Source of the DNA: Rhizopus arrhizus
Lineage: Eukaryota; Mucoromycota; Mucoromycetes; Mucorales; Rhizopodaceae
Reading direction: 5' to 3'
NCBI GenBank assembly: GCA_024220505.1
Contig: JAKZZE010000025.1
Span: forward strand, 1-64,000
DNA: 64,000 bases
Under the pieces are notes generated by a model. It worked only from the letters and a program-made list of their open reading frames with translations, had not been told where the DNA came from and ran no database searches. Numbering within the stretch: position 1 is the first letter of the stretch; the number at the start of each line of letters is the position of its first letter. This document shows positions 23,097 to 63,507 of this stretch, one piece after another. A program made the position numbers and the translations under genes.

Positions 23097-23120
23097 TAAA
23101 ATCAATCTGACAGCAAATCT

Positions 23121-26210: not shown

Positions 26211-26430
26211 TGAAAGATTTACCGTCCACATTTTTGCAAGCCTGTAGCGGAGCTAAAATCAAGCATATAGACATAAGCTATACATCATTCGAAAGCCCGG
26301 ACAATTTACTCTCAGATGGTGTAACATTTATATCCAAAAAAGGCAATAGTCGGACATTAATGAAGCTAGAAGATAGACGCTATATAGCCCTGATTTGTAT
26401 GGTTATCTATGAAAGTTTTATTTGTTTATT

Positions 26431-27757: not shown

Positions 27758-28009
27758 TAGATTTTGATGAAATGGAAAAAAAGATGAAGGAAAAAAAAAA
27801 AAAAGAAAAAAGTATCTCTTTTTATATTTTCTTACAAGGTTTGTTATCATTCCGAGATCAGCCGATAGATAGGAAGCATCTCCGCAACGGAAGCTCGTTT
27901 ACCGTAGTGAGATGACAAAAGTTTTCCCGAAACTCTTGAGATTTTGAAAAAAAAAAATGCTAAGTAACTTAGAGTAAAAGTTAAGCAAAAAGTAGATGAC
28001 AATGTATGA

Positions 28010-28081
28010 GCATCTGCAGGGAATCGAACCAACGACCTCCACATTTGAAAGCTATCGACGTAGCTATTTGACCAAGAATGC
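28010..28081 (-). tRNA. tRNA-like segment, probably a pseudogene or SINE head
   Basis: Read on the minus strand it has a perfect B box (GGTTCGATTCC, complement of 28020-28030) and an A-box-like TGGTCAAATAG about 40 nt upstream, with GCAT/ATGC pairing at the outer ends. The D, anticodon and T stems do not pair well, so no anticodon is assigned. It lies inside Mer1 upstream of its transposase gene. Confidence 0.35.
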
Positions 28082-28572
28082 TGATTTGCCGGTTTTCGTT
28101 TTGCAAGTCCTTCTGTCATCAAATTTCTGATTTTTGACGCGGATTTTCTCGACCTTCAGAAGTCGTATCTCGACCCGGATTTTTTTAATGATCTTGTACT
28201 TGCCCGCACTCTTGCTTGGAGTAATAGGATGGAGGAAAAAAACAACGGAACTTCGAGAATCTCGCAGTTGACCATTTTTGGTATAATAAACTCCGCTTGA
28301 AAATAACAGAATCGTGTTCTGTGACCCCAATAACCATATTAAGCATATTAAACTCCGCACGCGGAGTTTATATATGTATATATAGTATGTGGACGGTAAA
28401 TCTTTCACAGATCCGGTCCAAGAAGTCAAACAGCAAAGTAGCAAAACAAGTTGGTGTCAGTCGTACTACTGTTCAGAAGTACCGCTCATCTCTGAAGATG
28501 AGTGGAAATGTTGATGAAGGTGGTCGTCCATCTCTAATTAGTCAACGCATGGTAAGCTACATCCGGAGATTA

Positions 28573-31299: not shown

Positions 31300-32911
31300 A
31301 TTATAATTCAGGATAAAAGAACAATTTTGATGCAAAGGGGCAAATAGCTAAATTAAGGTACAAAATAAATAATAACAGTTTAATTGTTAGCAAGTGCTTA
31401 GAACAGTAAAAATAATTATGAGCCGTAAGAATTTCGTTAGCAGTGTTGTAAACATAGTTATTTTCTATATGATATCAGTTGTATTAAAATAAATAACGAT
31501 ACACAAAAGATTAAACTATGATTGAACAATTCCACACTTTTCCAAATTTAGAACAATAAGATCAATATCTGTCATCCTAGAGAGTCTAATCAATTGTCAA
31601 CCCCAAAAGTAATTAGATCAAAGTTAATTGACTGGTTATTATTTCTATTGTTCAATTTCAGATGCATATATTAGAACATCGACAAGCTTTAGCTTAATCA
31701 TTGGTTCTTCAGCACGACATCGTGACCGAGTCTATATCTTTTATATCTACGCTCACAAAGAATATAAATAGATGCCAACTTTTTATCCATAAAGCGGGGC
31801 CTTTTCGCAATATAAAGAAATCTGCAATAAAGAAGGATTTTAATTTTATATTGCTGCTATTGTTTTTTTTGTTTAATTTTTTATTTAATCTTGCGATTAA
31901 AACAAGCAGGATTACATGAAGAAAGAAAAGAAGTACAATCGAAAGTTTCTTGTACTTTTTGAAACACTTGTAAGTTCTAACGACGTCATCCCAGAGCATT
32001 TGCAAACTCGTTTTTTTCATGATTAAAACAATTGTTAGGCCTATCGTTCTTTAGTAGTCAAACAGATTGAATTCCTTTGGCTTCAATTAAACTGACTATA
32101 ACAGAGAAAAAATATAATAACAAAGGACAACCTACTCAAATCAATATTTTTACCCAATGAAGAAGTAATTTAAACAAATTACTTTATTGTATATGGTCTG
32201 AATTTGATAATAGTTTATACAACTCTTTTTTATATCTATTACGCATTTATATTCTTCAGTTTATTTCTCCATATTTAATACAAAAAAATAAAGATTCACA
32301 ACTATGACAAATCACTCTCAGTTCAATTAACATAAAAAGTTTGTAATGTAACTCGACTAGTAAAAGTATAATGAAGCAGTACTACAATTGGATACAAAGA
32401 AAAGTTACAGCAATCAAAGCATATCTTGTTTAAATTTGCTAAAATAAATAGAACTAACGGTACAGGTGCATTACTGACTTTTTGCCATAATGCTTACATG
32501 TCTTCTTTTTCACATTTTAAGTTTCCATTAAAAACATATCAGCTAGAGCACAAGATGTGGAAGTGGTTTAAGATACGACAATTGGCAGAGGCATAAAAAA
32601 ACGTAAGCTTTGTTCTTTTGTTTTTACATTTTTGACAGTAATGGGGTTATAAGTTGTCTCTTTTTTTGTTGTTGCAAATTATCTATTCTAAAAACAACCA
32701 TAAAATATAGTTCAAGAAAGAAACAAAAAAGAGAGTCGCAGAACTTTTTTTTTAAAAAAATAAAAATTTGTACACAATCCACTTTGTAATTGCTTAAAAA
32801 AACTAATGAAAAGGAATTTTTTTTACGACCATTACAATCATAATGCAGAAAAATGCAAGTTGTGTAATATCGATTCGTTATGTCTTTTAACAGTAAAATT
32901 CAGGTTTTATA
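31300..32911. other. Stretch without recognised genes
   Basis: 1.6 kb of AT-rich DNA between T6 and D2. Only short, low-complexity frames occur, some with hydrophobic T-rich codons. No TIRs, repeats or protein similarity were recognised. It may hold decayed retroelement DNA, as a gag remnant follows beyond D2. Confidence 0.5.
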
Positions 32912-32913
32912 TA

Positions 32914-34543
32914 CAGTAGCGGACAAAACTGGTGCACAAAAATTAAAATCAACATTGTATCTCCGCCATATGTCTGCGACTTTTGTGGCATATACCATCT
33001 GAAAGACAGTCCAAAATATACATTATGTTATGTAAACCGGAACTGTACCGGACATCCCCCAGGCATAAGGTCATTTTTAGTGCTTTTTTGCATATTTCAA
33101 TTTTCGCCAAAAATGTGGTGCTTGTCTAGCCTTCTTTCAATTTTCCCCATATCTCTCCCGTTTGCTTTCAGATTTCACAGCATATTAGTGAATTTTAGTA
33201 GCTCTTAAAAAATATATAAAACCGTAGTTATTTTGTATTTCCCATTGAATCCCCCCTTTTGTTTTTACCCTATTCACTATAACAAAGTACTAGCCTTATA
33301 TGTTTAAGAAAATAAGCAACTGTAAAAACGAAACTCTGAGATCTCGAATACACTTAGTTCGTACGACAACAGATATTTCTAGAATAACAAGAATCTCTAA
33401 ATGGACAATCAACAGGAGAAAGAGGGAAGAAAGAAACTTAATGTCTTGTGATCATGAAGGTCTCCCACTTTTAGTCTGAAAAGTTACTAGCTCAATCACT
33501 AACCTAAAGCTTGGACAAGGTCCGTTACATACAGTTTTCGATGCTCAGCACATTTTGAGGACCTTAAGATACAGTATTAGCAAATTGTCAGTCTGAAGGC
33601 ACTGTAGGAAGCTAGATTTTGAGTCTGGAAGTAAGGAATCGAAGAATTTCATCAGCTGTATTAGCCGGAAAAAGCGATGAATGTGGTATCACGACAAGCC
33701 ATTGTATACAATAGAGGGCTGGAAGTCTGCTATCTTTAGCAATGAAACAAATATGAACATTATGGATGCAGATAGTATACACTAATATTGAAAGCAAGTC
33801 GAGCAACCTGAGCGATTTTTTCACGGCGATCAAACAATGAAGCATGCTGGCTGCTCTGTTATGTTTTAAGGCTGTATTAGATATTGAGGACCTGAATATG
33901 TGTGTCAAGTATATGATGATATAATGAACTCATAAATATACACATATATTTCGCTTACTTCATACCATAAAAGCCTAGCGTATAGTGGTCTAAAACGTCG
34001 TAATCTCTCGTTTCAGTATGACAATGACACAAGGCACAAGTCGACGCATGTCACAATCTCAATATTTGATAACAGCGCTTCTGTGCTACAAGTTTAGCCG
34101 CCACTAATCCCGGCCTAAGTCCGCTTAAGCATGCCAGGTGGCAATTGATGGCAAAGGTATGATGATACGACACTAGATCAAAAAGGGTCGATGATCTTTG
34201 GAAAAGAGTAGTTAAAGAGCCGGGTTCTTTTATTGAAAATGATATACACGCATATTATTAGCATATGCAAAGAAGAACATCCGATGATATCAAGAGATGA
34301 GATGATTATATAAAGTCTAAGGTCTTAGCCACTTTTGCTGTTTTTAGAAAATATAAAATTTTATAAATTTAAAGCACGCTTATCGCTCAGTTTTAACAAT
34401 GTCATGCTCAGAACATACATAAGTTACAATGACTAGTATATCCTCCTTCTAGTACAGTTTCATGACTATTGCAATTACCATGAGCAGGTAACGGTAGTTA
34501 AAAGCTGAAAAAAAGTTTTGTGCACCAGTTTTGTCCGCTACTG
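32914..34543 (+). mobile_element. D2: copy of the dead 1630-bp Tc1 family
   Basis: Ends CAGTAGCGGACAAAACTGGTG.. inverted, TA at 32912-32913 and 34544-34545, 1630 bp. The remnant transposase is on + with the same SNET change, internal stops and the TAG before HMQRRTSDDIKR (near 34260) as D1, D3 and D4. Confidence 0.94.
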
Positions 34544-34637
34544 TAGTTTAAAAAGTGAGTTTGTCAAGTAGATCCATCCCATTTCAATATTTACCTGCAA
34601 AAAAAAAAAAAGGTGGAGCGATAAAAATGAATGGAGC

Positions 34638-43954: not shown

Positions 43955-45649
43955 GGCTAAAGCAAAAGATAGGTCCCGGAGATCGCTGGCCTCAATTAAG
44001 CTCCGATCTTCATGAAACTCCGAATATGCATTCTTTTACCTCGTATCATCTTTGATGCCAAATTTGGTAAGATTTCAATCAGCGCATCAGGTTCTATTGG
44101 CCATTGAATTTGCCTAGTATACCACTTAGTAAAATGAAATTGTGTGACCAAGATTTCAGAATTGGTCCAGCAGTTGCGGATGAGAAATTTATAGGAGTAG
44201 ATACAACAAGCTTTATTAAAGTCTGTAACAGTAGTTAAACTTTATTAAATGAATAAAACTGCACTGGCTATGCACGATGAACTCTACGAGACCTTCTGTG
44301 TTGTCTAGTAGTAGGTGTTTCCAGACTAGAGCGACCAGCTAAATCGGTCATTGCATCCATTATCGGAGCTGTGGGATCAATCATTCCAGGAGTTACTGCT
44401 GTAGAGCGAGTAGGGGGCATCCAGTCCTCGTCATCTGTACTATCCTCGCTTGAAGAAGCATCAGAATGATAGTCGTGCTCGAACTGGAATGGCTCATACC
44501 GGTCTTCTTGACTATCATCGATCTCAGCACCAACGTTTCCATCTGCAGCACGAGTAATCCATTCATATGAGTCAATATTATCTTCTGTTACCCCTTCACT
44601 AACTGTTCGCTGAAATGATACCTCTTGCAAGCATCGTTCCATCCCGCGGATAAGTCCATTGTCCCGATTTTCATACCTCCATAAGTACTCTAATAAACGT
44701 GCTGGGCAATGCTTTGCGGTGCGATAACGAGGGTGAACCAAAGATTTGACATCTCGCCATAGACCTTCTATAGTGTTTGTATTTACAGTAGGTGGAAAAA
44801 TGGTCCGGATGTTTTTAAATTATTCACAAATATCGCTATAGATTTACCAAATCTCCATCAAATTGAACGAAGCAAGCATTATTTTGAAGAGAAAACGTTA
44901 CTTTATTTTTAGTAAAAACTTGATATGTCACACAAAAGTTCAAAAGGAGCTACAAAAGATCAAATATTTCAGCAACATCCGGACCATTTTTCAGGGTGTT
45001 CCATAATATCTGTTAGTAGTCTGTATATCCCCCTTTTGCTTGAATAACAGCTTTGATTCTATCCGACATACTGTCTATATGCTTTCTACAACCAACTTTT
45101 GTAAATCTCGCTCATTGTTCTTCAATTCGATCCCATAGTTCATGAACGCCTTTAGCTCTGGTTTCATACGCACTTAACCTTAGCTTCAGGTGATGCCAAA
45201 TGTGTTCAATCGGGTTTAGATCAGGACTCTGAGCAGACAAACTGTAAATAAACTTGCTGTTGAAGTTGTTTTCTTCAAACCAAGCTTTTGCGACCTTCGA
45301 CGTATGTTTCGGATGGTTATCCTGCTGGAAGTAGATGTTTTTAGGGTCATAACTGTAGTAATTTAGGATGTCCATTAACGTTGTGTCCAATATATGTACA
45401 GTGGCTCACAAAATTGTACAAGTGTTTTGCATTTTTTGCTTCAGTAGGATTTATCGACACTAAAGCGATAAATAAGCTACAGCATGTTATACATCATTCG
45501 AAAGTATAGCTTCTTGGCGTTTTGCTAATATTATTTAGTCGGCGATAAAATCAGTTTTGATGGAGTTATGACCGTTTACAAATGCCAACTACACTTGTAC
45601 AATTTTGGGACCGATGTTTTACAATACGGTTTTTATTTAAAAGTGTGCG

Positions 45650-48313
45650 CTAATAGTTGATCCAAAGACCCTTATTTTTTATAATGTCAATACATCGTTG
45701 AGGCATACAGTAGCGGACAAAACTGGTGCACAAAACTTTTTTTCAGCTTTTAACTACCATTACCTGCTCATGGTAATTGCAATAGTCATGAAACTGTACT
45801 AGAAGGAGGATATACTAGTTATTGTAATTTATGTATGTTCTAAGCATGACATTGTTAAAACTGAGCGATGAGCGTGCTTTAAATTTATAAAATTTTATAT
45901 TTTCTAAAAACAGCAAAAGTGGCTAAGACCTTAGACTTTATATAATCATCTCATCTCTTGATATCATCGGATGTTCTTCTTTGCATATGCTAATAATATG
46001 CGTGTATATCATTTTCAGTAAAAGAACCCGGCTCTTTAACTATTCTTTTCCAAAGATCATCGACCCTTTTTGATCTAGTGTCGTATCATCATACCTTTGC
46101 CATCAATTGCCACCTGGCATGCTTAAGCGGACTTAGGCCGGGATTAGTGGCGGCTAAACTTGTAGCACAGAAGCGCTGTTATCAAATATTGAGTTTGTGA
46201 CATGCGTTGACTTGTGCCTTGTGTCATTGTCATACTGAAACGAGAGATTACGACGTTTTAGACCACTATACGCTAGGCTTTTATGGTATGAAGTAAGCGA
46301 AATATATGTGTATATTTATGAGTTCATTATATCATCATATACTTGACACACATATTCAGGTCCTCAATATCTAATACAGCCTTAAAACATAACAGAGCAG
46401 CCAGCATGCTTCATTGTTTGATCGCCGTGAAAAAATCGCTCAGGTTGCTCGACTTGCTTTCAATATTAGTGTATACTATCTGCATCCATAATGTTCATAT
46501 TTGTTTCATTGCTAAAGATAGCAGACTTCCAGCCCTCTATTGTATACAATGGCTTGTCGTGATACCACATTCATCGCTTTTTCCGGCTAATACAGCTGAT
46601 GAAATTCTTCGATTCCTTACTTCCAGACTCAAAATCTAGCTTCCTACAGTGCCTTCAGACTGACAATTTGCTAATACTGTATCTTAAGGTCCTCAAAATG
46701 TGCTGAGCATCGAAAACTGTATGTAACGGACCTTGTCCAAGCTTTAGGTTAGTGATTGAGCTAGTAACTTTTCAGACTAAAAGTGGGAGACCTTCATGAT
46801 CACAAGACATTAAGTTTCTTTCTTCCCTCTTTCTCCTGTTGATTGTCCATTTAGAGATTCTTGTTATTCTAGAAATATCTGTTGTCGTACGAACTAAGTG
46901 TATTCGAGATCTCAGAGTTTCGTTTTTACAGTTGCTTATTTTCTTAAACATATAAGGCTAGTACTTTGTTATAGTGAATAGGGTAAAAACAAAAGGGGGG
47001 ATTCAATGGGAAATACAAAATAACTACGGTTTTATATATTTTTTAAGAGCTACTAAAATTCACTAATATGCTGTGAAATCTGAAAGCAAACGGGAGAGAT
47101 ATGGGGAAAATTGAAAGAAGGCTAGACAAGCACCACATTTTTGGCGAAAATTGAAATATGCAAAAAAGCACTAAAAATGACCTTATGCCTGGGGGATGTC
47201 CGGTACAGTTCCGGTTTACATAACATAATGTATATTTTGGACTGTCTTTCAGATGGTATATGCCACAAAAGTCGCAGACATATGGCGGAGATACAATGTT
47301 GATTTTAATTTTTGTGCACCAGTTTTGTCCGCTACTGTAGTTTCAATATAAATTTGACATTCTCTTTCGGTAATTTCGTACCAAGTCTCGAACGTACGAG
47401 TCCATAGTTCATCCATAGAGATAGGAGGAAAATCGTACTGCTTAAACAAGCGTTTTTTTAGGGTATTCCACATATTTTCAATTGGATTTAAGTCTGGAGA
47501 CTGTGGAGGCCACTCCATTGCTGTAAAATCCTGTTTAGACAGCCATTCAGATACGATTTTGGACTTATGCTTCGGATCGTTATCTTGCATAAATTCAAAA
47601 TCAGTCATTCTCAGGCCATTTTCTTTACAACAGTCGGTCATAGACTTCACCAAACCATCTTGCAATACAGATAAATAGACACTCTTGTCCATATTCTTGC
47701 CTACGTCGACAATATACCCAACCCCGTACCAGCTAATACAGCTCCAAACCATAAGTGAGCCTCCACCATGTTTTACGGTTTGCTTTACATGCCTTCTTTT
47801 AAGCTTCTCATTTGGTTGTTTCCAAGCATAAAGCTTACCATCCGATCCAAAACGATTAACTTTAGTCTCATCAGACCAAATCACGCGTTTCCAGTCTTCT
47901 ATGGTCCAGTCAACGTGATTAAGAGCCCAGTCCAATCGCTTTCGTCTGTTTACTTCACTGAGCAATGGTTTTTGAGGCTTCACAAAAGAGGTTAAACCAG
48001 ACCTACGCAACGATCTTCGAACTGTTTCAGCTGATACAATCTTTTGCAAGTCATTCTCAAGTGTGTTTCTGGCTTCTACTACATTCTCTTGACCTTTAAC
48101 AGTTACCAATCGGACTAAATACTGATCATCCCTGCTGCTGAGTAACTTGGGGCGACCTGCTTTAATGCTCTTTACTTCGTTTTTTATTGTTTTTCGAACA
48201 TTCTGAACAGTTCCACGGCTTGCTCCAGTTATTTTTACTGTTTTTGATATAGAGTATCCGCTTTTTAAGCAGCTGATGATACGATTACGGAGATCTTCAC
48301 TGATAGGTTGCAT
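45650..48313 (-). pseudogene. Tc1-type transposase of T11, split only by D3
   Basis: 48313-47340 plus 45707-45650 join, with one TA, into 1032 nt (343 aa). The N-terminus is MQPISEDLRNRIISCLKSGY with a helix-turn-helix (SISKTVKITGASRGTVQNVR). Catalytic motifs: VIWSDETKVNRFGSDG, FMQDNDPKHKSK and QSPDLNPIENMW, 34 residues apart (DD34E). D3 entered within the codons of IET-MPQRC near the C-terminus. As it stands, the gene runs into D3 and makes a 354-residue protein whose last 30 or so residues come from the D3 end. All catalytic residues are kept, so the chimeric protein might still be active; that is inference. Confidence 0.9.
45708..47337 (-). mobile_element. D3: copy of the dead 1630-bp Tc1 family (in T11)
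   Basis: Ends CAGTAGCGGACAAAACTGGTG.. inverted, TA at 45706-45707 and 47338-47339, 1630 bp. Remnant transposase on minus with the same lesions as D1, D2 and D4. Confidence 0.94.
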
Positions 48314-50458
48314 ATTGGACGTTGGTACACTTTTATATAGCAGTTAGCTCCTGTAGATGTAAGTAAAATGGCAAAAAAGGAAAGAAAAACATACTTTGAG
48401 CATTGAAGAATAAAAAAAAATCTTTTCTGGTGGCTTACGCGCTGTGACGAGCAAGATTATAAGCTGATATTGAAATATTTGAAACGGTCCCAAAATTGTA
48501 CAAGTGTAGTCGGCATTTGTAAACGGTCATAACTCCATCAAAACTGATTTTATCGCCGACTAAATAATATTAGCAAAACGCCAAGAAGCTATACTTTTGA
48601 ATGATGTATAACATGCTGTAGCTTATTTATCGTTTTAGTGTCGATAAATCCTACTGAAGCAAAAAATGCAAAACACTTGTACAACTTTGTGAGCCACTGT
48701 ACATAATCTTCTTTCTTCATTGTTCCATCATAGATACCACAAGCATACCCAGGATCATCGTATGTAATACAGCTCCACATCATAACGCTACCTCCACCTC
48801 TTTTTATTGTGAAGTCAGGATGGTGGAATCGAAGCTTATCATGTACTCTCTTCCAGTAGTACTTCACACCGTCTGATCCCCAAATGTTTACCTTAGGCTC
48901 GTCAGAGAATACCATACGACATCAATCATCTTTTGTTCAATCCTTGTGGGCGTTGGCACATGCAAGTCGCTTTTTCATATGAATAGCCTTTAAAAACGGC
49001 TTGTGCTTCATAATACGGGTCTGGAATCCCGTCTATTTTAAAAGTTTTAAGCAAGAAGAGTAGCCAATTGCGCATCCAAGACCACATAAATATCGTTGTA
49101 CACCCTTCCCCGTCTTTAATTTACCTGATATGGCTGATTGTCTAATGTAGGACTTGGTTGTAGCAGTAATTTCGGTCTTGCGGCCTGATTTAAGGGGCCT
49201 CATGTTAGGAAACCATCTTCGCTTATAGTCGCTGATGGTGCTTTTCTTGACTCCAGGCACTCGTTTTATGATGGATAAGTAAGAATGACCAGATTTGAGT
49301 AAGGACTTGATGTTATCTTGTACATCTAAACGCAAAGAACGAACCATGTTTGTATAAAGCAGTAATAATAAAGAAAGAAGAAGAAAGCGTGCTAAATCAG
49401 CCAAAAAAATGCAGATATTTATATTTTTTTTATTATTAATATGAATCTAATGTATTATTAATCATCTGAAATAAAAGCGACGGCTTCTGAGTCAGCAGCA
49501 TTGAATAATCTTGGTAATTAAATTTCTATAGGGCACCCTGAAAAATGGTCCGGATGTTGCTGAAATATTTGATCTTTTGTAGCTCCTTTTGAACTTTTGT
49601 GTGACATATCAAGTTTTTACTAAAAATAAAGTAACGTTTTCTCTTCAAAATAATGCTTGCTTCGTTCAATTTGATGGAGATTTGGTAAATCTATAGCGAT
49701 ATTTGTGAATAATTTAAAAACATCCGGACCATTTTTCCACCTACTGTATCATGCCCTCTGTATGGTTACCCTCTACATTATCCCGAGTAGCAAAGCCATG
49801 GGAATGGTTAACAACCTCATGCCGACGGAAAAGAAACTCACTAGAGCTATAGTTTGCTGGAGCGAATATATGATTCTGCAATCTTGCATCATCAGGATGA
49901 AGTGAGGAATAGGCCCTCCATCCATCGCTACGGATGACTGCTCCTTCCTTGCAAAGCTGGTAAAGGATAGGCAACAATGTAGCAGCAGTCCTATTCGGAA
50001 CGGTACAGAGCATACGGCGTCCAGCAGAGAACTTCTGTCTCGTCTCTTGAACACCAGTTGTAGGATCGGTATAGCTGTACGTAATACAGTGCCCCACAAA
50101 ACCCTTCAAGTGTTTTGCTTTTTTTCGTTTTTTGCTTGTCACGAAGCATTGAGTACTACAATTGGTAGCATGCTATACCTTATTTGAAAGCTACTGTGGC
50201 AGGGTATCTGGATAATGTTTAAACTCCGAGCTCCATGCAATGGCCGTGGAGTAATGACACTTTAAAAACAGACACACACTTGAAGGGTTTTGTGGAATTT
50301 AAAAAATCTCATGTTAATGTCGTAAAAATCATCATACACGTCACAAAGATGTGACTTGTCAACTTTTTGTGTAAAACGTTTTGTTTATTTACAACTTTCT
50401 ATTTTTTTGTTTGCCTTTTTTTATAACATAACCTAATTAAGTGACATGCGACCAATTA

Positions 50459-52120
50459 CAGTGAGTTAAAAAACCGTTTCAGTGTTTTTCCTAAATATGG
50501 TTTTGCTACCATAACTACTGATATACTAAATAAAATGCTACATTTCATACATCATATGAAAGCACTAGTTCTGATGTATAATAAAATATAAAAATAGTAT
50601 TACTTTTTCAATATTTGCTCCCTAAAACTTATAAAATTACTACAGTCGGTGCACTGAAACGGTTTTTTAACTCCATTAAAAAAAACATAAATACCAATTA
50701 CAATTATGCAGACTTCATTTTTAATTTATGCAATACACATAAAGTTAGGGGAAGAGTATAATACTTTGCATTTATTAAAAAAACAAGTATATAAACACTT
50801 TATTTTATTAATAGACGCGTAACAAATTTCATCCTTTTTCATTTTACATTTTCAACCCAATCTTTATTAAAAATGACTCGCTCCATTTCCCAAGATACTC
50901 AAAATGCTTTGAGAGTGCTCTTAGAGTCTGATTTGTCTTATGAAGAGATTGCTAATCGCTTGACTTTCTCTAAAGCCACTGTTCATCGATATTGCAAAAA
51001 ATGGAATATTCAAAGACCCGATAACACTGGCGGACGACCTCAGATCTTAACTGAAGCAAGCAAGTCCCTCATGAAGAGAATGGTAATCTTAGGACGATTG
51101 AAGTCAGGTGTTGAGGTCTTCGATTATTTTAAGGTCATTTACCCAAGGTTGACTTACAACACCACCCTAAATGCCTTAAAGAGCCTAGGATTTAAAGCCC
51201 GACCAAAAAGAAAGGTACCTCTTTTGTCAGCAAAACACAGGAAAGCACGCTTGGAATGGGCACTTGCTCACAGGTACTGGACTACTGACGACTGGAGAAA
51301 GGTTATCTTCTCTGACGAGTCAAAAATCAACGTTTGGGGCTCTGATGGAGTTGAATTCTATTGGAGTCTACCTGGAAGCCCATTACAGCCTCATCATGTA
51401 ATCCCAACCGTAAAACACGGCGGTGGAAGTGTTATGGTGTGGGCTTGTATGACTTCTCATGGAGTTGGATATATCTGCGAGATATACGACGGCAGAATGA
51501 CTGCATCCGATTACATCCATATCCTAAAAACCGAACTGGCAGATACCCTTCATTACTACCGATTAGGAGATGGTGATTTCATCTTTCAGCATGATAATGA
51601 TCCGAAACACACTGCCAAGATAACGACGACTTATCTTATAGAAGAAGCAAAGTACCCAGTATTGCCTTGGCCTTCTCAATCGCCTGACCTGAACCCAATT
51701 GAGCACATGTGGCGACACTTAAAGTTGAAATTAGCTTTATACGAGCAAAGGACAAGAGGTGTCCATGAACTATGGGAAAGAATCAAAATTGAATGGGAAA
51801 CATTTGATAAAGATATTTGCTGTAAATATATTGATAGTATGCCGGCTAGAGTTCAAGCTGTAATAAAAGCTAAGGGTGGAAATACTATATATTAGTATTT
51901 TTTTACCTAGTTAAAAAACCGTTTCAGTCATCCCCTTTTTTTAAAATGGCCATTGCTTAAGATGTAATTCATAGATTAAGATGAGATGTACATTGCTTTG
52001 TTGCAAAAAAGCCATATAATAACATAATAAAAAAAGAACACGTATACTCTAAATATTTCTTTCAAAAAAAGGATAAATGTGTGAGTTTCAATTTTACTGA
52101 AACGGTTTTTTAACTCACTG
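50459..52120 (+). mobile_element. T13: intact Tc1/mariner element
   Basis: 1662 bp, ends CAGTGAGTTAAAAAACCGTTT.. inverted, TA at 50457-50458 and 52121-52122. Inner inverted tip copies lie at about 50652-50670 and 51910-51928. It carries a complete transposase and is the best candidate for an active element in the window. Confidence 0.95.
50873..51895 (+). CDS. Tc1-type transposase of T13, full length
   Basis: 340 aa, uninterrupted. The helix-turn-helix region (MTRSISQDTQNALRVLLESD, YEEIANRLTFSKATVHRYCK) is followed by a GGRP linker and the RNase-H-fold catalytic domain: VIFSDESKINVWGSDG (first Asp), FQHDNDPKHTAK (second Asp), QSPDLNPIEHMWRH (Glu). 35 residues separate second Asp and Glu (DD35E). 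The C-terminus is SMPARVQAVIKAKGGNTIY. Every signature motif is canonical. The start is the ATG matching MPK/MTR starts of relatives, about 415 bp from the left tip. It should cut at its own ends and insert at TA. Both ends and both TA copies are intact. Confidence 0.95.
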   Translation: MTRSISQDTQNALRVLLESDLSYEEIANRLTFSKATVHRYCKKWNIQRPDNTGGRPQILTEASKSLMKRMVILGRLKSGVEVFDYFKVIYPRLTYNTTLNALKSLGFKARPKRKVPLLSAKHRKARLEWALAHRYWTTDDWRKVIFSDESKINVWGSDGVEFYWSLPGSPLQPHHVIPTVKHGGGSVMVWACMTSHGVGYICEIYDGRMTASDYIHILKTELADTLHYYRLGDGDFIFQHDNDPKHTAKITTTYLIEEAKYPVLPWPSQSPDLNPIEHMWRHLKLKLALYEQRTRGVHELWERIKIEWETFDKDICCKYIDSMPARVQAVIKAKGGNTIY

Positions 52121-53348
52121 TAGCAATGACATGCAGAACAGAATCGTTCAACTTCTTAAAGAGGGAGTTTCTGGAGAAGAAATATCGACGAAGACTGGTG
52201 TCAGTACTGGAACTATTTCAAAAATCCGAAAAAACCATGATTTGGGAGATTTTAAAGCTAATGGAGGTAGGCCATTCGTAATCTCGACATTACTAGGTCG
52301 TCGAATCTTGCGAAATTTCAACTCTGGCAATTACAAAAATGCTTCAGACGCTGCTAGAAAGTTGTTAGAAGATGGTGAAAATATTAGTGCTGAGACTATA
52401 AGACGTTTTTTAAAAGAATCAGGTTATGCAGCAATTCATAAGCCTAAAGTCCTTCCTTTAACTAAGCACCGTATGAAGGAAAGATATGAATTTGCACGTG
52501 CGCATCTATCATGGACCATCGAGGACTGGAAAAAGGTCATTTTCAGCGACGAAACTAAAGTGAATAGAATTGGTTCAGATGGTTTACAATGGACTTGGAC
52601 AAATGGTGACAAGTTAAAAGACTTTCAGGTTCAGCATATGATCAAGCATGGAGGAGGTTCATTGATGCTGTGGGGCTGTTTAACATGGTATGGCGTTGGA
52701 TACCTATCGAATATCAAAGGAAGCATTAATTCTGACTTTTATATTGGTATTTTGGAAGATGAATTAATGAAAACAATTGATTGGTATGAGCTTCAAAAAG
52801 AAGAGATTATATTTCAGCAAGACGATGCTAGTATCCATACTGCCAAAAAAGTCTCTGAATGACTGGAAAACAATAATATTACTGTATCAAGATGGCCACC
52901 TCACTCTCCTGACTTAAATTCTATTGAGAACATATGGTCAATCGTAAACCGTCGTTTATTACAATACGAAAAGCAGCCTGACGGAATGCTCGAATTATGG
53001 TCAAGAGTAGAGGATGTTTGGGAGTCAATTACTCAGAATGAGTGTCAAAAGCTCATAGAAAGTATGCCTAAACACATTAAAGCAGTTTACAATGCAAAAG
53101 GAGGACATACTAAATATTAATTGTTGTTAAACAAAAATTCTACAAAACCCTTCAAGTGTGTGTCTGTTTTTAAAGTGTCATTACTCCACGGCCATTGCAT
53201 GGAGCTCGGAGTTTAAACATTATCCAGATACCCTGCCACAGTAGCTTTCAAATAAGGTATAGCATGCTACCAATTGTAGTACTCAATGCTTCGTGACAAG
53301 CAAAAAACGAAAAAAAGCAAAACACTTGAAGGGTTTTGTGGGCACTGT

Positions 53349-53978
53349 GGACAATGTAAAAGATACGATGCAAGGAGATTCCGGGCCGGGTATTTGTCCT
53401 ACATAGATACCAATTACAGCAATCGACGCAAATAATTTTTCCGCATCGAATGGTGTCACTTTCGAGGCAGTCACGTTTAAACTCAGGTAGATATGGCGCT
53501 TGCAACACGAAAAAACCTCTTTTGAGCTAATCCCACAAAAACGATGCGGAGGGATTACTCTACCAATATTTGTACAACATCAGCATCCGGCACCGCAATG
53601 AACGCGAATAATTTCTTCCAATCCAATGGTGGTATTTATAGACCTCTCACTGTAACATACAGGGAGATACAGGCCTTTAAAGACGAAAAAACCCCCTGGT
53701 CGGACGGACATTATGCTACTAGGAAGGATTACAAGCCGAATTCTTGTTCTACCTATATGACAAGCTTACCCATAGGTAGAAACAGTGCTTCCGCATTTAA
53801 TCATGATATTTACAAAGTGATCACATCGAAACTCAGCTTGATATCCGTCTTAAGGCGTGAAAAAAGTGCTTTTGCTGATGGACAAGAAATTGTGCAGGTA
53901 GACTGCAATCTGAATATTGCTTCTAGTTATACTTAAAATATTCTTACAACCTCAGATGATATTTCTGCATTGACTGCT
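53349..53978 (+). repeat. Left 630-bp TIR of MerL
   Basis: Appears identical to 60162-60791 (inverted) except for the outermost bases 3-9. It is made of about 3.5 diverged tandem units of roughly 175 bp, each opening near GATGC..GGA. Read on + it encodes repeats of about 58 residues sharing the shape (D)Y..N..C/ANNF..SNG..Y..(E)KT/S, with an open frame at 53544-53936 (130 aa). The frame resumes past the stop into the element interior (..SALTADNFEALNFFYKKQ). No known domain was recognised; it may be a captured repeat-protein fragment or noncoding repeat DNA. Confidence 0.85.
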
Positions 53979-55351
53979 GATAACTTTGAAGCACTAAATT
54001 TCTTTTACAAAAAACAATTACGAAGCAAGCAAAAAGGAGCATGAATAGATCTTCAGGGAAATTGTACAAAGCCTCTCTTTTTGGCCTGAGCACTATCACT
54101 CCTTTCTGTGTATTTTACAACAATATCAGCCGTACCATCTTTTCTAAGGCGAGGTTCATAATAGGTATACAATGGAAAGCTGACGGTGGTTGCCAGTAGA
54201 AAGCTTATTATACTGTAATGTTTAAGAATTCACCGAACTATTGGTTCTACAATGTGAAAATGGGCAAAAACTTTTTTTAGGTAAATAAAATTATGACAGT
54301 GACAAATTAAGCTAAAAAACTTCATTTGCAAATATGTAGACATGAGACGGGTGAAATATCAAAACTGGTACTATGTGCTATAATCTGCAAATAGAAGTGC
54401 TATAGGTAGACATAATAAAATAATAAATTATGCTATAAACCAAGCATCTCCAACATTAGCATAGTTGAATCATAAAGATCTGACGATGAATTATATCATA
54501 AAGGGTAATGAATGTCTTGCATATATAATACCAACTTGATATAGTAATGAGTCTTTGCATAATTTCTTTTATGATCCAATGTATTAAGTTGCATTGAGAC
54601 TATGCATGTCAAAATAGAATATTGTTTTTCTTGCATAGTAACTTTATTGATCTAAACGAATGATTGAGAAATAATCCTATCAATAATCCGATTGGTGTCT
54701 TAATAGCTCCTGTTGTCTGCATTATTAGGTTTCAGTTTTTCTGTACTTATTTAGTAACCGAGTTTCAGGAACAAAATACGAGAGTCGTCTTAAACAACAA
54801 TTGCATGGGTGCCTATTTATAAATGCAACATCAGTAGCTTAGAATAATGATTTATAATATAATTATACAAGATATGATGGCAATGCCCCAATCCAGAATG
54901 AAACATCAAGAAAGAACCAATTGATTTAACTCAATCGTCCCCATGAATTATTATTCAAAAGAATATAAATATCCCACCTAAATCCTCATTGAAAAAGGAT
55001 AACTTTAACTGGGATATAATCAAGAATAAAAAGTATCTCAAATTATCGTTTTGGTGCATTTTTATTTCTTTTTATTTTCGTTTATTACAAGAAGAACATA
55101 GGGTCAATTAGAATAGTCAAACCATCCATAATAGCATGCATATGTAACCACAAGGCGCAGGCATATAATGAACCGTAACTTCGAATACTAATTTCCGAAT
55201 TGTAACCACGAGTACTAATTTCCGAGTTGTAACCATGTGTATATTTGAGTATCTCATATGTGAAACAACGTGTTTAATTGCTGTTCAAATATCTATATAA
55301 AGAGACATACCTTTTTCTTTTTTTTTTTCGTCTTCATTTTATATAATTAAT
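53979..55351. other. MerL interior upstream of its transposase
   Basis: No gene. 54395-54530 resembles 42385-42508. 55185-55240 holds two copies of a unit of about 28 bp (CGA(A/G)TACTAATTTCCGA). A TATATAAAG box lies at about 55293, about 60 bp before the transposase ATG, a plausible promoter. Confidence 0.5.
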
Positions 55352-57089
55352 ATGCCTCGTTTCAACTCATCTGCTTCTGTCCCTTCAAACAACGATGTCA
55401 CTCCTCGTAGGGGCGGTCGAGTATCTGGTCAAGTAGTCTCACGTTACAGGTCTTATGTTCCTCCTGCTGGTGACCGTGTCCTTGAAGCGCAAATAATTGT
55501 TAGTCCTGAAAGAGCATGGGAGTAAGTTAATTATAATAAAAAATGTTACATTGCGATAGTGGGATTTTTTTTCTTACTAACTCTTTACCTTTGTTTGCAG
55601 TCATCTTTTATCCGTAAACAACGCTTTTCATAGAACTAATGTATGTGGCATTGATGGCTGTCGAAAAGTTTGCACCCTAAGAAATCGTGTCGACAGCGGA
55701 AGACTTACGTACTATTGTGCTGGTGGTCTTGAGATTGATGAAAATGGTGCTACTATTGGTCATGCTGGAAGAAAATCACGCGTTTGTACGTATAATTCGG
55801 TGTTCTACAATCGTAAATGCTTGACCAACTACACTCTTTCTGTGATGTATGACTATTTAAAAGACTCAAGCATTACCAACATTTGCAACTCCCACGACAT
55901 GAGCCGTCCTGCTGTGACTTCATTGGCAAATGATCTTCGTTTAATGATGCTCAGTGATTACAATGCCCATAATCGACAAGAGGAGCATAAGCTAGGTTCT
56001 AACATAAGGTGTCATCACATACAAATAGATGAATCTAAGTTTGGCAAGCGCAAAAACCATCGTGGTCATCGTGTAGAAGGTATCTGGGTCTTTGGTATGG
56101 TTGAGTGCTTGGTCCCCATCAACGAAGCAGATCGATTTTACACCTACACTGATCATCGAACTGGCGAACAAGAGCTAAGACCTAGGTACGAAGCAGGACG
56201 CAAATTCTTTTGCACCGTCCCTAATCGAACAGCGGCAACACTCTTGCCCATCATTTATGATAACTGCCAGCGTGGGTCAACCATTAGATCTGATGGATGG
56301 AGAGCATATTCCGGTCTGCACCCTAGGGAAGAGCATGACGAAAATACTGGCGAGATACTTGACAACACAAGAGCTTACAATGATGGCAACTTCTTTTTTG
56401 CAAGACATCAGGTTGTTAATCATTCCTTAGACTTTGCCACAGTAGATCAAGTTCAAGGTAACCAAGGCGAGTATTCTGGCTTGCCAATATCTGGTAAGAT
56501 TCATACCAACATGATCGAAAGTATGTGGGCTCCTTTGAAAGCATTTATCAAGCCTCGTAACCGAACCAAAAAGAACTGTTACAAACGCATCTTGGAGTAT
56601 CTTTGGCGAAGCGAAAATGGAGGTAGTGTAAAACAGTGCTTTGAACGTATGATTCGTGAGGTGGCAATGGATTCGAATACAGCTCAACAGTCTGCTGAAA
56701 CTGAAAGCTGGTTTACCCGCGGTGTTGATGGCAATTCCCCTTCTGTGTCAGCACGAATTGCAGCTAGAGATGCTCGTCGTTTTGAAGCATGGGTAGAACG
56801 TCGTCGTGCCCGCGATGCTAGGGAATTGTTAGAAGAAGAAGCTATACAAGCAAACGATGGCGGGGAGGAGCTAAATGACACGGCAGAAACATCCAGCTTT
56901 TTACTTCAATCAGAGCAGGGCAGTCCTTTGGTATCTAGCAATGGTCAAAACGAAGCCTTACCTACACATAGTAATCGTCTTGGTGGAAGGCCTCGAACTG
57001 GAAGCCGTCCTGTTGGTAGACCTAGAGGTGCTAACCGTGCTGCCCGTACTACCCGTAGAAATTTAGGCAATAGAGCCAGTAACTCATAA
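55352..57089 (+). CDS. Merlin (ISXO2-like) transposase of MerL, full length
   Basis: Exon 1 55352-55521, intron 55522-55600 (79 nt, GTAAGT..GCAG) and exon 2 55601-57089 give 552 aa (MPRFNSSASVPSNNDVTPRR..). A Trp at the splice junction (ERAWDHL) matches MerA (TTWTHL), which supports the splice. Zinc-ribbon Cys: VCGIDGCRKVC and TYYCAGG. A helix-turn-helix-like segment is near SRPAVTSLANDL. The DDE core reads HHIQIDESKFGKRKNHRGHR, STIRSDGWRAYSGL and HTNMIESMWAPLK. The C-terminus is basic with GGRPRTGSRPVGRPRG, AT-hook-like. It carries out cut-and-paste transposition with 8-bp duplications. No lesion was found, so the gene is a candidate active transposase for MerL, Mer1 or MerA-type ends. Confidence 0.93.
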
Positions 57090-57353
57090 ACTAGCTATGT
57101 TTAAATATAGCTTTAATTAAATATGTACCTTCAGGTTCTATGTCTTAATTGTATCCCTTTCATGCTTAATAATAAAAATAAAATATCACTATCAAAACGC
57201 TAAAAAAATGATTTGCTGTAAACTTACACTCCTTCCAAGTGAAGTTGATACATACTGATGATAGATCTGTTGTAGTAGTGATGTTTATTAAAATTATGCA
57301 AAATCTTAGTCCCTTTGTCTGAGTAAAGGGTGCTGTTGAGCAGTAACCAATTA

Positions 57354-58993
57354 CAGTAGGTCACAAAACTGCTGCAAGGAATTGCAAAACTCAGGTTTTA
57401 CAGCTGGTTGTCCATGGGTACTGCACCAAACTATCTCAAACTTTGACTGTTTGTACCTCAATGGAAAGTGCATTTATTCGTCGATTGTCGGATATGGGCA
57501 ATGGTTATTGGTGGAATTTGAGATCGCTAAAGGTAGTATTATGAACATCCGACATTTTTTACTTGTTCACATATGTTTTAAATGACGAATTTTAATACGA
57601 CCCAACCGGTTGCTATCATAATTTTTCACATTCTTGACATGATTAGAATGATGCCAGTATATATAGAAGCGCTTACAATTCCTTTATTTTAAATTTTATA
57701 TTCCCTTATTTAAATTATTTCTCTTTTTACCCTATCGTCAATCGCATGCCTAAACGGCTGTCAGAGGAGAAAGTAAACGATCTCAAACAGGCATTAACCG
57801 GATCCACATCAATGTATGATATTGCCAAGGAGACTGGATTACATTAATCAACTGTTACTAGATACTCTAGACGGCTGTTTTCAAGTAGGACAGTAAACAC
57901 AGGTGGTAGACCTACATTAGTCTCCAAAGTGACGAAACGGCTAATCAAAAGAAAAGTCATTGAAGGGGTTCTAAAGACTGCCAAAGAGGTACACCGGGAG
58001 CTGGTTCAACTTGGCTATGATATCTCATACCAGTCAGAAATTAACGTACTGAAATCAATGGAGTTCCATTTTCTGATAGAAAAAAAGAAGCCATTTCAGA
58101 CAAAAGTGCATACGTAGCATCAGTTAGAATGGGTCAAGGAGCATCAAGGTTAGGCAATGAGTGACCGACAACAAACAGTGCACTTTAATGAGACCAAGCT
58201 CAGCGTATAGGGCTTTGATGATGCTGATCACTATTGGAAACGGCCAAGTGATCTTCTACAACATCATGACCTGGATTTTGCAATCAATCACGGAGCTAGC
58301 AAAATGATGCCCTGGGGTTGTATAATCTCTGAAGGACCAGGATATACTTGCTAAATTTACGATGGAAACTTGAACTTGGGTGTTTACCAGCATATTTTGA
58401 ACACTACGCTTCGTGATACTATGAAGTACTACAATTTCGACTGGCCCAACATTTAGTTTTAGCATGATAATAACACAAAGCACAAGGCATAATCTACAAT
58501 AGCCTAGTTATGTAGTCACCAAGAGAGCTATGTTAACTATTGGTCAGCTTAGATCCCTGACTTAAATTCAATCGAGCACGTAGGACATCAATTGAAGTTG
58601 AAACTCAACTATTACGAACATAGAGCAAAGAACACGGATGTGTTTTGGGAACGAGTTGATGAAATATGAAATGACTTCCATAAAGATCTTTGCCAAGGAC
58701 ATATAGATAACATTCCGGAAAGAACTCAAGAGATTATTAATAGAAAAGTAGGACCAACTAAATATTAATAAATAAGTTCATTCCGTTCAAATTTTCATTT
58801 TTTCAAATTTTCAAATTGCGCGCCTCATACTTCCTTCAATACTTATCCAATAGGGCATAAACTCTTTCGGATTTTTCAAGACATGTAGAAGATTTACTAT
58901 GTGGGAACAGAGGCAGTTTGTGCCATTGTAACAGGATGTGCGCTACAAAAACCAAGAAAAATGGATTCCTTGCAGCAGTTTTGTGACCTACTG
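57354..58993 (+). mobile_element. T14: Tc1/mariner element inside MerL, degenerate
   Basis: 1640 bp, ends CAGTAGGTCACAAAACTGCTG.. inverted, TA at 57352-57353 and 58994-58995. No inner inverted tip copy is seen. Confidence 0.92.
57746..58768 (+). pseudogene. Tc1-type transposase of T14, killed by nonsense substitutions
   Basis: From MPKRLSEEKVNDLKQALTGS to ..KVGPTKY, 1023 nt, no net frameshift, the same length as T2, T8 and T13. It has about ten stops. Many fall where relatives have Gln (LH-stop-STVTRYS; YTC-stop-IYDG; a TAG just before HDNNTKH) or Trp (a TAG in place of VWG; DEI-stop-NDF), that is CAA/CAG or TGG changed by C-to-T or G-to-A transitions. Catalytic motifs are eroded (HFNETKLSV for FSDETK; IPDLNSIEHV). 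Confidence 0.88.
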
Positions 58994-60161
58994 TAAAGTC
59001 GACATTGATAGATATAAGGTTTAATGCAAGATTGTAATTAAAATAAAACAAGATAAAAGTTAAGTTAAATAAGGCGATGTATGTCGTATTTTCGTTATTA
59101 CACTTAAATATCGAGTGAGATTGTTCAAGATCTCCATGTTATATAATTTAAAGCTATCTTTATCCAACACTACTGATATATAGCATTCAGTATATATAGT
59201 CAACTTTAGTAGCTCATATTTTGTAGCTGTGGTTCCTTCATTACTAATTTTATAAAGACGTCATCTGTATTTAATGGGCTCTCTTCTCTGTCTTCACTCA
59301 ATAAAAAAGCTCAAATAACTCATCGATTAACAAATTTCAATTTTTACTTTATTTTGAACTGTAATCCAGAATACACCATCCCAAACATCACAACAATGAT
59401 TAATTTCAGGTTAATGTATCCTTTTAGAATATGCTTTGTATTAATGATGGTTCTTTGTGCTGCTGTCGTAAGGTTAAAAAAAATACAAAAAAAACAAAAA
59501 CAGAACAAAAGCAAAAGAAAAAAAAACAACAACAACAACAAAAACAATAACAGTAGAACAGTAACTGGTTGTAGTCAACATTGGTAAATATAAGTCTTGA
59601 TACAAGATCATAATTAAAATAAAATAAAATATAAACATATTTAAATAAGACCATGCAATCAATTCCAATTAAACATACTCTAAAAGAATATGTATTGTAT
59701 CCATGAGAGTTCTTTGATAAGAAGAAGTATCAACTAAAATAACCAAGTCCAATCCCATGTCAGGAATATTGCTAATCTTTCACATAATTGAAACAACGCG
59801 TAAAATAACGTTATTCAAATCAGTGAGGAATTCCCAGAATAAAAGATAATCTATGACAGACATACAAAAGAACAAATGAAAGTTTTCATAATCATAATTA
59901 GAGATGACACTTGCTAAAGTACCTGAAGATTAGAAGAACGATCACAATACAACATATCAAGCCACTCACTCAATAAGATATAAATACCTGACTTCAATTA
60001 GAATAATTTATAGTTTAAGTTAAACTGAAATATAAACCAGTCTCATGCAGGACTTACACTCTTTCCTTATTATTGTTTAATAATTTTTTCATTATATGAC
60101 AATTGGATATATGTTACCATTGTTATGTAAGATATTATGAAGGGTAACCTTTAATAGAATT
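58994..60161. other. MerL interior downstream of T14, no gene
   Basis: 58996-59060 and 59570-59640 are direct repeats at roughly 75% identity (ATAAG..CAAGAT..TAATTAAAATAAAA); the left copy appears to continue across T14 into 57339-57353. A TATAAATAC box at 59980 hints at old LTR material. Short A-rich frames at 59354-59587 are low complexity. Confidence 0.5.
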
Positions 60162-60791
60162 AGCAGTCAATGCAGAAATATCATCTGAGGTTGTAAGAAT
60201 ATTTTAAGTATAACTAGAAGCAATATTCAGATTGCAGTCTACCTGCACAATTTCTTGTCCATCAGCAAAAGCACTTTTTTCACGCCTTAAGACGGATATC
60301 AAGCTGAGTTTCGATGTGATCACTTTGTAAATATCATGATTAAATGCGGAAGCACTGTTTCTACCTATGGGTAAGCTTGTCATATAGGTAGAACAAGAAT
60401 TCGGCTTGTAATCCTTCCTAGTAGCATAATGTCCGTCCGACCAGGGGGTTTTTTCGTCTTTAAAGGCCTGTATCTCCCTGTATGTTACAGTGAGAGGTCT
60501 ATAAATACCACCATTGGATTGGAAGAAATTATTCGCGTTCATTGCGGTGCCGGATGCTGATGTTGTACAAATATTGGTAGAGTAATCCCTCCGCATCGTT
60601 TTTGTGGGATTAGCTCAAAAGAGGTTTTTTCGTGTTGCAAGCGCCATATCTACCTGAGTTTAAACGTGACTGCCTCGAAAGTGACACCATTCGATGCGGA
60701 AAAATTATTTGCGTCGATTGCTGTAATTGGTATCTATGTAGGACAAATACCCGGCCCGGAATCTCCTTGCATCGTATCTTTTCCTTCAGCC
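60162..60791 (-). repeat. Right 630-bp TIR of MerL
   Basis: Inverted copy of the left TIR; the 130-residue frame at 60596-60204 on minus is identical to the left one. The inner neighbour sequence differs from that of the left TIR, so the repeat ends s abruptly at 60162. Confidence 0.85.
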
Positions 60792-61699
60792 GGCACTGTA
60801 CCAGTACGAAGGGCTTCTACCATTCCAAAAACCCAAACTCCATCTCTGCGTGATCCACGATTGTATTTACGCTTGCCAAATTTGGACTCGTCAATTTGAA
60901 TATGATCACAGAGTTCGTTGTCACCGAGCTTGTAGTCACCAAAATACCTGATAAAATCGTTGTGCATAAGCATCTGACAATCAACAGCAAGCTGACTAAC
61001 AGTAGGACCACTAATGCGAACCGTTCTGATGATAGTAGCAATTGATGCCTTACGAAAATACTCCGAAAGTACTATGTACACCTTGTTGATGTCCGACTTC
61101 TTATTAAAAAATACAGATCCCTTCGTAATGGATTCTTGTCGATCATTATGAATCCCAATTGATGAAGGTGTGCGACAACGATAGTAGAACTGAGATTTGC
61201 TACGTCTGTACCTAAGGGCCATCTCATTCGTGCATCCATTGAAGTTGCAAATGCGGTTTTCCCTGTAGAACGCACCAATGGATTCCCTCAGGTGACTGTA
61301 ATTCCATCAGTAAACATGCCCTACTTTCCTTTTATATCACTTACGTCCATGTAGTTTCTTCTGGCACAATGATTCTTGCTTCGCTCACTCTGTCACCATC
61401 CGAAGGAGTACGAGACCCATAAGGAGCAGACAATTTGCCAGAAGTACGGCCACCACGACGTGATAAGGATACAACAGAGCTTGAGATGGACATAGACGAA
61501 AATAAGTAAAATACAGAGAAAATACAAAAATGCAAAGGGGTATTTATATTCTTCCTACAAAAAATGACGCAACATAAGTATCCAATCACATTGGTGATTA
61601 TCTATCCCGAGTCAGAGTCCAGGGTCAACAAAAAAAGCGCAAAACACCACAAAAGGAAAGAAAAAAAATTATTCTAAAAAGTCCACTGACGCTGACTTA

Positions 61700-63329
61700 C
61701 AGTAGCGGACAAAACTGGTGCACAAAAATTAAAATCAACATTGTATCTCCGCCATATGTCTGCGACTTTTGTGGCATATACCATCTGAAAGACAGTCCAA
61801 AATATACATTATGTTATGTAAACCGGAACTGTACCGGACATCCCCCAGGCATAAGGTCATTTTTAGTGCTTTTTTGCATATTTCAATTTTCGCCAAAAAT
61901 GTGGTGCTTGTCTAGCCTTCTTTCAATTTTCCCCATATCTCTCCCGTTTGCTTTCAGATTTCACAGCATATTAGTGAATTTTAGTAGCTCTTAAAAAATA
62001 TATAAAACCGTAGTTATTTTGTATTTCCCATTGAATCCCCCCTTTTGTTTTTACCCTATTCACTATAACAAAGTACTAGCCTTATATGTTTAAGAAAATA
62101 AGCAACTGTAAAAACGAAACTCTGAGATCTCGAATACACTTAGTTCGTACGACAACAGATATTTCTAGAATAACAAGAATCTCTAAATGGACAATCAACA
62201 GGAGAAAGAGGGAAGAAAGAAACTTAATGTCTTGTGATCATGAAGGTCTCCCACTTTTAGTCTGAAAAGTTACTAGCTCAATCACTAACCTAAAGCTTGG
62301 ACAAGGTCCGTTACATACAGTTTTCGATGCTCAGCACATTTTGAGGACCTTAAGATACAGTATTAGCAAATTGTCAGTCTGAAGGCACTGTAGGAAGCTA
62401 GATTTTGAGTCTGGAAGTAAGGAATCGAAGAATTTCATCAGCTGTATTAGCCGGAAAAAGCGATGAATGTGGTATCACGACAAGCCATTGTATACAATAG
62501 AGGGCTGGAAGTCTGCTATCTTTAGCAATGAAACAAATATGAACATTATGGATGCAGATAGTATACACTAATATTGAAAGCAAGTCGAGCAACCTGAGCG
62601 ATTTTTTCACGGTAATCAAACAATGAAGCATGCTGGCTGCTCTGTTATGCTTTAAGGCTGTATTAGATATTGAGGACCTGAATATGTGTGTCAAGTATAT
62701 GATGGTATAATGAACTCATAAATATACACATATATTTCGCTTACTTCATACCACAAAAGCCTAGCGTATAGTGGTCTAAAACGTCGTAATCTCTCGTTTC
62801 AGTATGACAATGACACAAGGCACAAGTCGACGCATGTCACAAACTCAATATTTGATAACAGCGCTTCTGTGCTACAAGTTTAGCCGCCACTAATCCCGGC
62901 CTAAGTCCGCTTAAGCATGCCAGGTGGCAATTGATGGCAAAGGTATGATGATACGACACTAGATCAAAAAGGATCGATGATCTTTGGAAAAGAGTAGTTA
63001 AAGAGCCGGGTTCTTTTATTGAAAATGATATACACGCATATTATTAGCATATGCAAAGAAGAACATCCGATGATATCAAGAGATGAGATGATTATATAAA
63101 GTCTAAAGTCTTAGCCACTTTTGCGGTTTTTAGAAAATATAAAATTTTATAAATTTAAAGCACGCTTATGGCTCAGTTTTAACAATGTCATGCTTAGAAC
63201 ATACATAAATTACAATGACTAGTATATCCTCCTTCTAGTACAGTTTCATGACTATTGCAATTACCATGAGCAGGTAATGGTAGTTAAAAGCTGAAAAAAA
63301 GTTTTGTGCACCAGTTTTGTCCGCTACTG
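61700..63329 (+). mobile_element. D4: copy of the dead 1630-bp Tc1 family (at the right TIR of MerA)
   Basis: Ends CAGTAGCGGACAAAACTGGTG.. inverted, TA at 61698-61699 and 63330-63331, 1630 bp. Remnant transposase on +: DISRITRISKWTINRRKREE, AIFSNETNMNIM and FQYDNDTRHKS, with the same stops as D1-D3. Confidence 0.94.
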
Positions 63330-63507
63330 TATCTAAGCGGTAGACTAGGCAAATTCAATGGCCAATAGAACCTGATGCGCTGATTGAAATCTTACCAAAT
63401 TTGGCATCAAAGATGATACGAGGTAAAAGAATGCATATTCGGAGTTTCATGCAGATCGGAGCATAAATGAGGCCAGCGATCTCCGGGACCTATCTTTTGC
63501 TTTAGCC

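Follow-up and report, generated by a model that had tools for sequence, protein, structure and literature searches.

The 64,000-bp stretch of Rhizopus arrhizus DNA analyzed here (assembly GCA_024220505.1, contig JAKZZE010000025.1, positions 1 to 64,000; hereafter the window) carries at positions 53349-60791 a 7,443-bp element that is very probably a transposon of the Merlin superfamily, mobile as a whole unit and equipped with long terminal arms that recombine within and between copies. Judged from its sequence, it is an autonomous DNA transposon with an IS1595/Merlin-type transposase. The Merlin superfamily (Feschotte 2004, as summarised in PMC8101967) is already known in Mucoromycota, Rhizopus included (PMC8101967, PMC5982828). 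The element is well supported, and its interest lies in the recombining arms more than in its size.

As shown in Table 1, the element is flanked by two copies of the 8-bp sequence GGCACTGT and ends in two 9-bp tips, GGACAATGT on the left and GGCTGAAGG (read inward) on the right, which mirror each other at the first GG only. Behind the tips lie two arms of 624 nt that are 100% complementary. A first-pass annotation of this DNA had described a large Merlin element at 53341..60799, with 630-bp terminal inverted repeats starting with GG and an exact 8-bp flanking repeat. The flanking repeat is there, the 7.4-kb unit is real, the arms exceed 600 bp and the ends do start with GG; however, the outer 8 bp on either side are the target duplication rather than element proper, and the perfect repeat measures 624 bp and begins 9 bp in.

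The transposase gene (55352-57089) is open, as the same annotation had held in calling it complete, and, with one predicted intron, would encode a product of 552 residues. A 429-residue part of the protein matches the Pfam domain DDE_Tnp_IS1595 (PF12762) with an E value of 6.5e-9 and 36.4 bits, above the cut-off of 27; the NCBIfam model transpos_IS1595 scores 45.7, under its cut-off of 75. The DDE residues are D200, D288 and E363, in blocks that align with those of database relatives. In an alignment taking in 26 of 62 such relatives plus the window protein (27 rows), the first D is invariant, the second is conserved in at least 90% of the rows and the E, by hand count, in 23; the block with the catalytic E is absent or garbled in the remaining four. 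Among named relatives the best is that of Rhizopus delemar (82%), with others from Rhizopus and Mucor. An IS1595/IS1016-like DDE transposase is thus present.

Published Merlin elements have arms of 24-462 bp, GG ends and duplications of 8-9 bp (PMC8101967). That range, which is not a strict limit, is exceeded by the 624 bp of the large family described here, modestly, and by relatives with arms of 494-504 bp; it also makes the first-pass remark that Merlin elements have short terminal repeats an overstatement.

Copies of the element were sought in the genome, 50.26 Mb in 41 contigs. Copies are labelled C1, C5 and so on, the window copy being C18. The element end matches 59 stretches (two or more per element, with degenerate ones counted), among which six complete large copies of 7,443-7,544 bp were recognized: C18, C23a, C20A, C20B, C1 and C11. 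All six have their tips at identical bases and arms of 624-625 bp; copies ending at other positions, which the first-pass annotation had named as the mark of a later rearrangement, were not seen among them. Five of the six retain a full-length transposase. Arms and copies are approximately 97-100% alike, and the interiors of C18 and C23a are 99.9% identical; the element seems to have been active in the fairly recent past. Over its full length, the interior of the window copy can be aligned with those of the remaining five, which also contain the nested Tc1-like element, while a 27-bp tandem repeat upstream of the transposase gene is longer than in the window copy by 81 bp in C20A and C20B and by 54 bp in C11. 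A seventh large-family copy, C6 (9.7 kb), has two right ends, and C23b and C17 provide further large-family ends in copies truncated within the fetched DNA. Relatives are C22, C16 and C25 (2.45 kb; arms of 504, 496 and 496 bp, respectively), C27 (9 kb; 494 bp), C8 (3.8 kb, with two right ends and arms of 513 bp including mirrored tips) and C5 (12.4 kb). The latter is approximately 67% alike in the end, its arms align across 493 columns at 88% and its transposase is 81% identical, with internal stops. C14 and C39, members of other Merlin families taken as a baseline for arm length, showed no clear paired ends within 3.4-3.6 kb.

Ends were searched with two patterns allowing up to three mismatches across 25 positions. 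Counts are restricted to confirmed ends. The tip GGCTGAAGG is found at all 25 right ends and GGA(CA/GT)ATGT at all 17 left ends; every end of either kind begins with GG, a count that is partly circular as the patterns themselves began with GG, mismatches notwithstanding. Thirteen elements have both ends paired: 11 left with right, two right with right and none left with left. Ten right and six left ends remained unpaired; the surroundings of some of these were fetched. In the C16 element (L045, near 3141-3156) the right tip is tandemly duplicated, GGCTGAAGGAAAAGA preceding GGCTGAAGGAAAAGATACG.

Duplications and empty sites, which the first-pass annotation had proposed to look for, were both found. 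Exact 8-bp duplications flank five of the 11 left/right elements: C18 (GGCACTGT), C23a (GATCTTGC), C22 (TAACGATT), C25 (CTTATTTC) and C27 (CACAAATC). A sixth, CGAGGGTA, appears when an exchange between C20A and C20B is undone. Three empty sites were identified. The window copy sits in the right terminal repeat of a Tc1-like element, and its flanks, joined with a single GGCACTGT, align with the left terminal repeat of this host over 216 columns with one mismatch and a 1-bp gap within a stretch of C residues. The empty site of C23a lies at C11:89024 (112 of 112 bases) and that of C27 in the window itself, at 2169-2320 (151 of 152). Because of these exact duplications and empty sites, several elements can be said to have transposed as units; the relatives with 494-504-bp arms have transposed too.

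Each 624-bp arm consists of three tandem units of approximately 177 bp. Units 1 and 2 are 64% alike (z 21.8, 0 of 500 shuffles), units 1 and 3 62% (z 18.0, 0 of 500); units 2 and 3 are more weakly related (56%, 4 of 500), and a partial fourth unit is marginal (1, 4 and 24 of 500 shuffles). In the C22 arm, the resemblance is pronounced between units 2 and 3 alone (0 of 500). Tandem units inside long arms are a foldback-like trait, and the first-pass description of the element as foldback-like fits both its anatomy and its behavior. A 136-residue open stretch in each arm matches 55 places in the genome. From their positions we take these places to be ends of the present elements, more tentatively so for weak matches such as those at C4:614274 and C8:71009. 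The arm was rejected as a gene: differences between related arms are not concentrated at one codon position. Arm differences between copies fall within the range of interior DNA (the interior figures for C1 were dropped, this copy having been oriented by its tips), and no special constraint on the arms is claimed.

Exchange between the arms is made visible by the difference between left and right tips. Rare variants present in both arms of a copy occur at five columns in C11, two in C1, one in C18 and two in C6; four of the five in C11 also occur in the C17 arm. Over columns 1-575 of the six complete copies, differences between the two arms of a copy total 4, against a mean of 17.0 over the 720 possible pairings; six pairings score 4 or less, the true one among them. 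Column 623, near the inner border, distinguishes left arms from right arms in five of the complete copies; in C1 it is swapped relative to the tips. If all elements are written with the left tip first, C1 has its interior in the opposite direction to the remaining five complete copies. The interior of C22 likewise runs opposite to those of C16, C25 and C27, and the interior of the diverged C5 opposite to that of C18. In the truncated C23b the right tip is on the upstream side of the gene, and this copy is therefore either reversed or two-right-ended. C6 and C8 carry right tips at both sides, with the right flank copied over at least 716 bp at 100% in the former and over 227 bp in the latter.

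A further rearrangement involves C20A and C20B, which lie approximately 17.5 kb apart in opposite orientation and lack duplications of their own. An identical 8-bp sequence, CGAGGGTA when read in the orientation of the element, borders C20A at its left end and C20B at its right end. Undoing the inversion restores one insertion with an exact duplication and places the second (C20Y) in a single Tc1-like copy from which 51 bp are missing. From this arrangement, the two copies seem to have exchanged duplications as expected after an inversion of about 17.5 kb.

What is observed directly comprises the defined ends, the 8-bp duplications and empty sites, the near-identity of copies and an open full-length transposase frame. 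The encoded IS1595-like DDE transposase would act on one left-type and one right-type tip, a need suggested by the presence of both kinds of tip in all elements that have a duplication. The whole 7.4-kb unit would insert with duplication of 8 bp, presumably by cut-and-paste as in the family of the enzyme. The long arms belong to the mobile unit and would in addition undergo recombination, both inside a copy and from one copy to another: conversion would keep the arms of a copy alike, the interior could turn round, one end could be overwritten by a copy of the other, and two copies in inverted orientation could invert the DNA lying between them. Each of these events is deduced from patterns in the sequences. 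The probable repair route is through breaks at the ends of the element, with the opposite arm as template.

Several observations weigh against this reading. With the C20 exchange undone, five of the 11 left/right elements (C20Y, C11, C1, C16 and C5) have no 8-bp duplication; for C1, C5 and C16 one was looked for and none was found, while target bases are missing at C20Y (51 bp) and C11 (64 bp). No excision was observed. Variant 118T, one of the two both-arm variants of C1, is common to C1, C23b and one arm of C20A, and 329A to one arm each of C20B and C23a; hence exchange between copies contributes as well, and not every shared variant is private to a copy. The arms differ at three columns in C20A and at one in C1 (columns 1-575). 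Finally, flips, palindromes and exchanged flanks are each read from one assembly, without reads. As to the deletions, C11 (L037) sits in a copy of the sequence adjacent to C23a that lacks the 64 bp (counted by hand from the sequences), and in both C11 and C20Y the gap reaches the element tips.

The same transposon could have acquired its two-right-end elements, exchanged flanks and target deletions through aberrant transposition, with ends of different copies or sister chromatids jointly used, rather than through homologous exchange between arms. Abnormal transposition can cause target deletions, such as those at C11 and at the un-inverted C20Y. A hybrid-insertion model likewise leaves exchanged duplications (PMC2775673). 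Against this explanation, homologous exchange is the simplest account of interiors reversed between tips that have kept their places (C1, C22) and of variants shared inside both arms. We regard it as unlikely, though it deserves to be kept in mind, and in some of the rearrangements homologous repair and aberrant transposition are indistinguishable.

Assembly artefacts are a less probable source of the rearranged copies, and we rather doubt them. Long inverted repeats that are 97-100% alike, in an assembly judged without reads, invite wrong joins, and the C20 pattern might still be imitated by one located within the 7.5-kb copies. However, once the C20 exchange is undone, one site has its exact 8-bp duplication and the other a single Tc1-like element (51 bp missing), and the both-arm variants do not depend on the rearranged parts of the assembly.

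It is very improbable that the element is a composite, as the first-pass annotation had alternatively proposed, made of two independent Merlin-type elements in inverted orientation that mobilise the DNA between them. The arms are indeed long and nearly identical, and the tips at the two ends differ; but the terminal motif occurs in each arm at its outer end only, the transposase gene is situated between the arms, within which no gene is supported, and none of the 42 ends retrieved with the two patterns made an arm a two-ended element. That an ordinary short-ended Merlin was caught in a later inverted duplication giving the 624-bp arms is scarcely credible: short ends do occur in this genome (a unit at window positions 26204-28414 has a 21-bp inverted repeat behind its tips), but all six complete copies have identical arms and tips, with shared end points and empty sites, the target duplications sit outside the arms, the diverged C5 has arms too, and, since the elements moved whole, the long repeat did not arise by later rearrangement.

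Returning to the transposon with recombining arms, we envisage, more tentatively and with some reserve, a Merlin lineage with handed ends. Transposition would need one left and one right 9-bp tip, and the arms would be actively renewed by break repair templated on the other arm. Such renewal would keep the arms identical, flip the interior, at times overwrite an end with its flank and invert chromosome segments, so that the foldback/Galileo lifestyle would have re-arisen in another transposase superfamily.

Table 1. Features of the Merlin-type element and its insertion site (window coordinates).
Feature	Position	Strand	Basis or remark
Tc1-like element hosting the insertion in its right terminal repeat	50085-53348, resumes 60800		left terminal repeat serves as empty site
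Left target site duplication, GGCACTGT, 8 bp	53341-53348		sequence and empty site
Left tip, GGACAATGT, 9 bp	53349-53357	+	without mirror at opposite end
Left arm of terminal inverted repeat, 624 bp, three degenerate ~177-bp tandem units	53358-53981	+	
27-bp tandem repeat upstream of transposase gene	55170-55223	+	
Transposase exon 1	55352-55521	+	splice sites predicted from GT..AG and reading frame
Predicted intron	55522-55600	+	from GT..AG and reading frame, no transcript
Transposase exon 2, with DDE_Tnp_IS1595 domain	55601-57089	+	profile match, alignment
Nested broken Tc1-like element, 32-bp inverted repeats, ~1.65 kb of the 7.4 kb	57351-58996		
Right arm of terminal inverted repeat, 624 bp	60159-60782	-	
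Right tip, GGCTGAAGG (read inward), 9 bp	60783-60791	-	
Right target site duplication, GGCACTGT, 8 bp	60792-60799		

An 83-bp direct repeat, 77% alike (58997-59079 and 59573-59655), is found in the interval from the nested Tc1-like element to the right arm. The window is crowded with Tc1-like elements and contains four copies of a repeat of approximately 1.64 kb, 96-99% alike where compared (21464-23110, 32893-34545, 45705-47358 and 61697-63332). A second, outer Merlin-type element spans 43955-63507. Its inverted ends start with GGCTAAAGCAAAAGATAGGTCCC and measure at least 175 bp, and its minus-strand gene lies in pieces near 61589-60809, 50079-49756 and 44741-44268; the element is broken up by Tc1-like elements and by the 7,443-bp element, and no 8-bp duplication was found at its flanks. 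The Merlin-like unit at 26204-28414, with tips GGCTAAATG and GGATCTGTG, shows a similar left/right tip pattern with short arms; it has no open frame of 130 residues or more and no 8-bp duplication.

If the proposed reading is correct, long recombining arms arose independently in a further transposase superfamily. The unlike tips would then constitute a built-in marker by which flips, conversions and end overwriting can be counted directly, and the elements would be a concrete source of inversions in a transposon-rich genome.

Foldback (FB) and FB-like elements such as Tetris have very long inverted repeats, internal repetition and a link with rearrangements, all of which the window element shares; their arm length varies between copies. 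In contrast, the arm units of the window element are just 56-64% alike, and no such length variation was found among the six complete copies (624-625 bp). The prokaryotic IS1595 family resembles it in the domain match and in 8-bp duplications (PMC8101967); intron, size, arm length and an NCBIfam score under the cut-off set the window element apart. With the Merlin superfamily it has in common the DDE_Tnp_IS1595 transposase, 5'-GG ends and 8-bp duplications, and it departs from the 24-462 bp published for that superfamily in having 624-bp arms plus 9-bp tips, arms built of tandem units, unmirrored tips and signs of arm exchange. Unlike ends are not unique to it, because one Merlin family has been reported with very different 5' and 3' ends (PMC8101967). 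A search of literature titles, which lay outside Repbase and most subscription papers and is thus weak evidence of absence, returned none on long-armed, arm-exchanging Merlins.

The closest parallel in behavior is Galileo, a Drosophila element of the P superfamily (PMC2775673). Galileo also has long, internally repetitive arms that are nearly identical within a copy, a middle segment oppositely directed between copies, and exchanged duplications at inversions; the last of these is matched here by C20A and C20B, one pair in one assembly, with a duplication at one of the two insertions once the inversion is undone. Galileo differs in its transposase superfamily, in its 7-bp duplications and in that natural chromosomal inversions were studied, as opposed to one assembly here. 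In conclusion, the element belongs by its transposase within the Merlin superfamily, as a variant whose behavior, by analogy, resembles that of Galileo.

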